Shown: positions 14,207 to 14,507 of the stretch, piece by piece
Layout of the letters: the number at the start of each line of letters is the position of its first letter
How positions within the stretch are numbered: position 1 is the first letter of the stretch
From: Methanohalophilus mahii DSM 5219
Lineage (GTDB): Archaea > Halobacteriota > Methanosarcinia > Methanosarcinales > Methanosarcinaceae
Direction of reading: 5' to 3'
Assembly: GCF_000025865.1 (NCBI RefSeq)
Contig: NC_014002.1
Location: 1,240,001 to 1,304,000, forward strand
Length of the DNA stretch: 64,000 nt
The notes under the pieces: generated by a model
What the model was told of the DNA's origin: nothing
What the model saw: the letters and a program-made list of their open reading frames with translations, nothing else
Databases searched by the model: none
Position numbers and translations under genes: made by a program

Positions 14207-14217
14207 AATTCATAAAA

Positions 14218-14272
14218 GGCCGGTATCATCAGAAACCATGACGGGAGGGTAATGAAAACCGGCCAGCCTTTT
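14218..14272. terminator. Possible bidirectional terminator hairpin
   Basis: GGCCGGT (14218-14224) pairs with ACCGGCC (14258-14264), followed by AGCCTTTTTATT. It lies between convergent uppS and the 24-codon minus-strand gene, so it could end both transcripts. The 33-base loop is long, which makes the call moderate. Confidence 0.4.
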
Positions 14273-14277
14273 TATTG

Positions 14278-14352
14278 TTAATTGTTTCTAAAGTGGTCCA
14301 GTTTTTCATAGCGTTTTGTTCTCTCTATAAGTCCTTTGAAGAATTCATCCAT
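14278..14352 (-). CDS. 24-residue small protein with consensus ribosome site
   Basis: A short minus-strand frame of 24 codons, MDEFFKGLIERTKRYEKL plus DHFRNN, followed by TAA. GAGGTGATC ends five bases before the ATG and is an exact match to the archaeal 16S anti-Shine-Dalgarno complement. Further upstream on the same strand AGTTTATATTC can serve as a TATA box at suitable distance. The peptide should form one amphipathic basic helix. I recognise no family. The unusually good translation signals are the reason to call it a gene. Confidence 0.6.
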   Translation of the reverse strand: MDEFFKGLIERTKRYEKLDHFRNN

Positions 14353-14507
14353 ACTGATCACCTCAATAAGAAATAAGAATATAAACTATTTTAAGGACCT
14401 CCAAGCAAGGTGAAAGTAATATAGAAGATTAAAAAAACCACTCATCAGACAATATTTATTTATTCTTCCGGATAGGTTATGAAAATACCTGGTGTATGGA
14501 GTTGAAA

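Follow-up and report, generated by a model that had tools for sequence, protein, structure and literature searches.

The bacterial LexA/SOS regulon includes the small effectors SulA, SidA and YneA. In archaea, LexA is absent according to a report on Halobacterium, in which the UV response comprises an approximately 7-fold induction of radA1 and a modest induction of the RPA genes, and no SOS-like coordinated response was reported (PMC1224876). In the Sulfolobales, the DNA damage response element (DDRE), the hexamer ANTTTC, is bound by Orc1-2, occupies positions -44 to -39 of the start site and precedes 214 genes (PMC5817253, PMC9738581, PMC10470591). The open-access literature searched describes no euryarchaeal regulon in which the damage response is coordinated through a common operator. 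Two very short proteins of M. mazei have been characterized, sP26 (23 aa), reported to bind glutamine synthetase, and MtrR (49 aa), reported to bind the Mtr complex (PMC11957540, PMC13370731).

The window, here the whole stretch of 64,000 nucleotides of Methanohalophilus mahii DNA that was analysed, contains a short gene with its flanking signals, all on the minus strand:

14278..14352, minus strand: micro-protein ORF of 24 residues, MDEFFKGLIERTKRYEKLDHFRNN-stop, recognized by translation, cross-genome conservation and codon statistics.
14356..14364, minus strand: Shine-Dalgarno site GAGGTGATC, able to pair with the M. mahii 16S 3' end.
14386..14395, minus strand: TATA-like element CTTAAAATAG, in the slot held by TTATATA/TTAATATA in the aligned promoters (153 sites).
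14401..14422, minus strand: upstream promoter box ATATTACTTTCACCTTGCTTGG, family consensus AWTACTTTCACNNNGCTTGG, with its exact core at 14418..14401 and a fixed spacing to the TATA element and the ATG.
14214..14272, minus strand: 3' hairpin with a GGCCGG stem and a pyrimidine-rich loop containing ACCCTCCCGTCA, recognized by its fold and by paired stems elsewhere.

With a probability of roughly 0.7, this locus encodes, as a gene standing by itself, a conserved 24-residue micro-protein that is helical and soluble, and it belongs to a gene set that shares a common, undescribed promoter box and most likely constitutes a regulon of the DNA-damage (SOS-like) type.

The gene is missing from the existing annotation of M. 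mahii, and its 24 residues fall below the usual annotation limit, as the first-pass annotation of this DNA had suggested. That annotation had also described a ribosome-binding site mirroring the 16S 3' end five bases before the ATG. GAGGTGATC is indeed the exact complement of GATCACCTC within GGCTGGATCACCTCCT, the M. mahii 16S 3' end, of which the genome carries 3 copies, in agreement with its 3 rRNA operons, but the spacer between GAGGTGATC and the ATG measures only 3 bases (AGT). The TATA-like box reported upstream is recovered as CTTAAAATAG at 14395..14386. The conserved promoter box lying 5' of this element had been overlooked and is found here; its presence suggests that the gene is induced rather than expressed constitutively. 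The micro-ORF and uppS are convergent, with the 3' hairpin between them, and the first-pass annotation had suggested looking for the peptide next to uppS or methyltransferase genes. The uppS neighbourhood is common only to some genera (Methanohalophilus g1, g3, g13), and elsewhere the gene has different neighbours; because this arrangement is not kept, a functional tie of the gene to its uppS or DNA methyltransferase neighbours is unlikely and was set aside.

Judged by its conservation across genomes, the 24-codon micro-ORF is a real protein-coding gene. Within the genus, all 24 residues are identical in five of eight genomes, and the remaining three show 78-96% identity. When the peptide is used as query, every genome of the genus and most of the family give a match, and reading frame, start and stop codons and Shine-Dalgarno site are conserved across both; the first-pass annotation had named a frame not conserved in close relatives as an observation that would refute the gene, and this test did not refute it. 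Matches read in context comprise 48 distinct peptides of 18-52 residues, one of which (L175) is a false match; the presence of a Shine-Dalgarno-like site in the genes of all 48 follows from the selection rule applied. A family profile built from 26 members, run against the 133 Methanosarcinales genomes with a completeness of 85% or more, matches 119 of them, among these 88 of the 90 Methanosarcinaceae, and in families f3 and f4 it finds no match except a marginal one in f3 (E 0.097). Substitutions are concentrated at third codon positions, where the entropy is 1.29 bits, compared with 0.79 at first and 0.43 at second positions. The pN/pS ratio is 0.30, compared with 0.83 +/- 0.16 in column-shuffled alignments (0/200 as low), a value that serves only as a guide because pS is near saturation. 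The kept reading frame and its signals, together with this purifying selection, bear out the original claim of a 24-residue gene; the high level of translation that was also claimed is a prediction from these signals.

Among the residues, M1, L8 and R11 are invariant or nearly so, and E16-Q17-F18-E19 is typical of the micro-proteins from the Methanosarcinaceae. The f2 relatives read MEDEFWSGIVKRA...RRSQFSRHF, and the f5 relatives MDLFWSGLARRAS...RRSQFS. Two f31 genomes outside the order encode MNEFWKELVERA...RRRSQF downstream of ATTACTTTCA, so that the micro-protein family may be older than the order. In family f9, the distant relatives are represented by a single plausible sequence, L326 (G240:C1:1172288, minus strand), a possible relative that reads MSEFWVNLVARAKFYEEMEKK... 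and has a TATA-like stretch preceded by CACTTTCGCACCACTCCCAAGGC; its own relatives are too few to judge, and its later E-value is inflated because L326 was in the query alignment. No relative of the micro-protein is encoded in phage records. Several copies of the gene occur in some genomes, five of them in G012 (L016, L027, L029, L030). In Methanosarcina genomes (L334, L335), the gene forms pairs approximately 0.5-3.5 kb apart, and the second copies that were read lack the box.

The micro-protein is charged and soluble-looking, without a transmembrane stretch. The longer Methanosarcina homologue, 47 residues reading MEEIF[KR]GLVERAQYYEQFESFRN..., is predicted by AlphaFold to form a single helix over residues 2-29 at modest confidence (pLDDT approximately 80 over the first 20 residues, mean 66), and may be contained in the published M. 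mazei Ribo-seq lists (PMC11456600). A strongly amphipathic helix was rejected, the hydrophobic moment being not above that of shuffled peptides, and a Pfam scan of three family members gave no match.

In alignments of the region upstream of the micro-gene, an almost invariant TACTTTCACNNNGCTTGG lies always 65-68 nt before the ATG. The exact box is present at 133 sites in 68 of 86 near-complete family genomes, and the reversed pattern at none. Across a phylum sample of 391 genomes, the box is confined to the order except for five scattered hits among approximately 300 genomes outside it, which is near chance, with one hit for the reversed control. Over 153 promoters the consensus is A-W-TACTTTCAC-NNN-GCTTGG, which is not palindromic, and TTATATA starts approximately 27 nt past the start of the box. 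This places the box directly upstream of BRE/TATA, a usual binding place of archaeal activators (PMC5817253), which points to activation. The box is rare, with about 1-10 sites per genome, and holds a fixed place in several promoters, in the manner of an operator. M. mahii has only two strong boxes, that of the micro-ORF and that of a small RNA at 2010740. A larger M. mahii regulon operating through degenerate boxes was rejected, sites with 1-3 mismatches being no commoner than in the control (60 versus 54 with three or fewer mismatches) and none lying at repair genes beyond chance. Use of the box by viruses was likewise set aside, the only matches being two near-identical IMG/VR contigs with no clear gene after the site. 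The open-access papers searched yielded no description of the box or the micro-protein.

Altogether 143 distinct box contexts were read, many of them kin by descent, so that the site counts overstate independence. The micro-ORF accounts for approximately 44 of the 143 and the conserved small RNA for approximately 35. The largest protein cluster behind the box is a radical-SAM protein (TIGR03916 rSAM_link_UDG, 'putative DNA modification/repair') with 19 sites, accompanied by RPA (11), RadA (4), tyrosine integrases (4) and RecQ (2), while DprA, RmuC (PF02646), a Bro-N/DinD-like protein (PF02498), DUF1016 and others are represented by one or two cases each. When the GCTTGC variant is allowed, the boxed genes also include RadA and Hef (genus g4) and Nre (family f5). 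RecQ is boxed in three families (f1, f2, f5), which favours a functional association over shared descent alone, as would be expected if selection had repeatedly placed repair genes under the box. The largest boxed set belongs to genus g4, which includes an ANME-3 assembly. Across the order the boxed target genes are mainly those of recombination and repair, but not so within M. mahii, and it is the micro-protein, followed by the small RNA, that recurs most constantly in the set, not the repair enzymes. The tyrosine integrase genes lie behind the box at L066, L079, L172 and L177, and the mobile elements of these archaea may thereby couple their movement to the same signal.

In several genera the same box drives the conserved small RNA, which is approximately 80 nt long and in M. 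mahii reads TCACGGATTCGATGGGCACACGCCTTTACAAGTTTCAAGGCTAGGTGCCATCGATCATCCCCTCAACCGTGA. Its loci include L061 (C1:2010740 onward, outside the window), L046, L071, L078, L080, L098, L114 and others. The stem-loop covaries, with double changes in 6/15 pairs, and Rfam holds no match for this RNA. A further element, GAGGGGATGAATGG, occurs 118 times in 57/86 family genomes versus 0 for the control; its M. mahii sites, L310 at 1501 and L282 at 1501 and 1535 (C1:459680, 471077, 471111), are outside the window. Most copies fall into one of two settings. In the first, the element is part of a structured RNA in the intergenic region that separates rtcB from a TGT_C2/PUA gene; in the second, it lies in a gene leader, where a similar second copy is often present, and the gene encodes a Q/P-rich protein whose C-terminus is winged-helix-like. 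Within GAGGGGATGAATGG, GAGGGGATGA is the exact complement of the small RNA segment TCATCCCCTC. The element is missing from Methanosarcina, and the small RNA is not found there either.

The hairpin that the first-pass annotation placed downstream of the gene folds over 14272..14214 at -21.8 kcal/mol, modestly better than shuffles in single-sequence folding (z -1.75, 12/200). Its stems are GGCCGG/CCGGCC, GGCTGTG/CACAGCC, GGCCGTAG/CTGCGGCC, CCTGCCGT/ACGGCAGG, CCGACCGC/GCGGTCGG and others according to genus, and since they change in sequence yet keep pairing, the hairpin is taken as real. A terminator whose loop has a regulatory function, or a regulatory RNA element, are possible roles; Rfam has no match near the locus. 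The preserved pairing, together with long, C-rich loops that recur across genera (CCTCC, ATCCC, CCCGTCA) and with the non-coding RNA carrying an exposed CAUCCCCUC that is driven by the other strong box of M. mahii, would also suit a conserved entity that is mainly RNA, namely a small regulatory RNA that works in trans through its 3' hairpin, with the ORF serving only as a stabilizer or leader. However, the peptide is under strong purifying selection, Methanosarcina and several relatives lack the hairpin yet have the peptide, in a longer form, and the M. mahii hairpin, considered as an antisense RNA against the GAGGGGATGAATGG elements, pairs with two candidate targets no better than shuffles, all of which makes a mainly RNA-based function quite unlikely. 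That the micro-ORF arose by chance and happens to carry good signals is scarcely conceivable: ORFs of 24 codons arise often, but conservation, the codon-position pattern and a promoter architecture fixed in more than 100 genomes already contradict it.

The box, for its part, could be a general strong-promoter element or an alternative TFB site serving mixed genes including small RNAs, given that its M. mahii copies precede no gene other than the micro-ORF and a small RNA, and that a few boxes elsewhere precede genes without a repair role or no assigned gene. Such an element would be commoner and functionally unselective, whereas each genome has only about 1-10 boxes, and those protein genes behind them that could be named belong mostly to recombination and repair or to mobile elements; this explanation is therefore unlikely. 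The sharing of one type of promoter box by a short peptide and a small RNA would also suit a type I-like pair induced by damage (compare TisB/istR and DinQ), in which the peptide would be the toxin or growth-arrest part and the co-regulated small RNA its controller. By inspection, AUCCCCUCAA of the small RNA pairs with UUGAGGUGAU of the ORF with one mismatch, although the predicted pairing is no better than that of shuffles (p 0.22). TisB and DinQ are membrane peptides, unlike the micro-protein, and Methanosarcina possesses the peptide but no boxed small RNA was found there, leaving the toxin reading very improbable.

An SOS-like regulon is instead proposed from the boxed content, which comprises a recombinase, a single-strand binding protein, repair helicases, DprA, RmuC, a DinD-like gene and integrases. 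From these sequence patterns we infer damage induction, activation rather than repression, and a regulatory role for the peptide. By analogy with the small SOS effectors of bacteria, the best guess is that the micro-protein acts as a damage-induced regulatory peptide of the checkpoint type. Upon damage or replication stress, a putative activator, or an activator-type general factor, would bind the box and recruit TFB/TBP. The short leader and perfect Shine-Dalgarno site would then allow fast, strong translation of the micro-protein, and the helical peptide would engage a partner in replication, recombination or cell division, restraining it during DNA repair. A broader and more tentative proposal, with somewhat less than even odds, is that the Methanosarcinales possess their own SOS-like damage regulon, with a bipartite box and a non-LexA activator, whose ancestral core consists of the 24-residue checkpoint peptide and a trans-acting small RNA, and into which radA, RPA and recQ were recruited lineage by lineage. 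The combination of a sharp, rare box before radA, RPA and recQ with a near-universal micro-protein makes the question testable in the genetically tractable Methanosarcina. The box offers a handle for isolating the regulator, and the micro-protein represents a new family, whose partner may act in replication, recombination or division.

Set against known systems, the boxed genes resemble the LexA/SOS regulon in that one operator-like sequence is shared by recombination and repair genes, by integrases and a DinD-like Bro-N gene, and by a short peptide encoded on its own, but the box is not palindromic and hence not LexA-like, and the promoter is archaeal. The micro-protein differs from the SOS effectors in lacking a membrane segment, and has no recognized relationship to SulA, SidA or YneA. 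It is comparable to sP26 and MtrR as a very short protein from the same archaeal family, the latter two being reported to bind an enzyme. MtrR was excluded as the same protein, being without aromatic residues and confined to Methanosarcina; sP26 (23 aa) was the other candidate considered. The radA and RPA genes boxed in the Methanosarcinales correspond to the radA1 and RPA genes induced in the euryarchaeon Halobacterium, where the available portion of the report describes no shared promoter element (PMC1224876). The nearest archaeal parallel is the ANTTTC/Orc1-2 system of the Sulfolobales. The Methanosarcinales box is longer (18-20 bp) and bipartite (TACTTTCAC...GCTTGG), and is found about 1-10 times per genome as opposed to before 214 genes. 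The upsE version of the DDRE, ACTTTC, is contained in TACTTTCAC, a six-base match that may be due to chance, and in the Methanosarcinales box it lies approximately 10 bp, or about one helical turn, further from the TATA element. Both elements are non-palindromic and sit directly upstream of BRE/TATA, and the promoters carrying the DDRE are damage-inducible.
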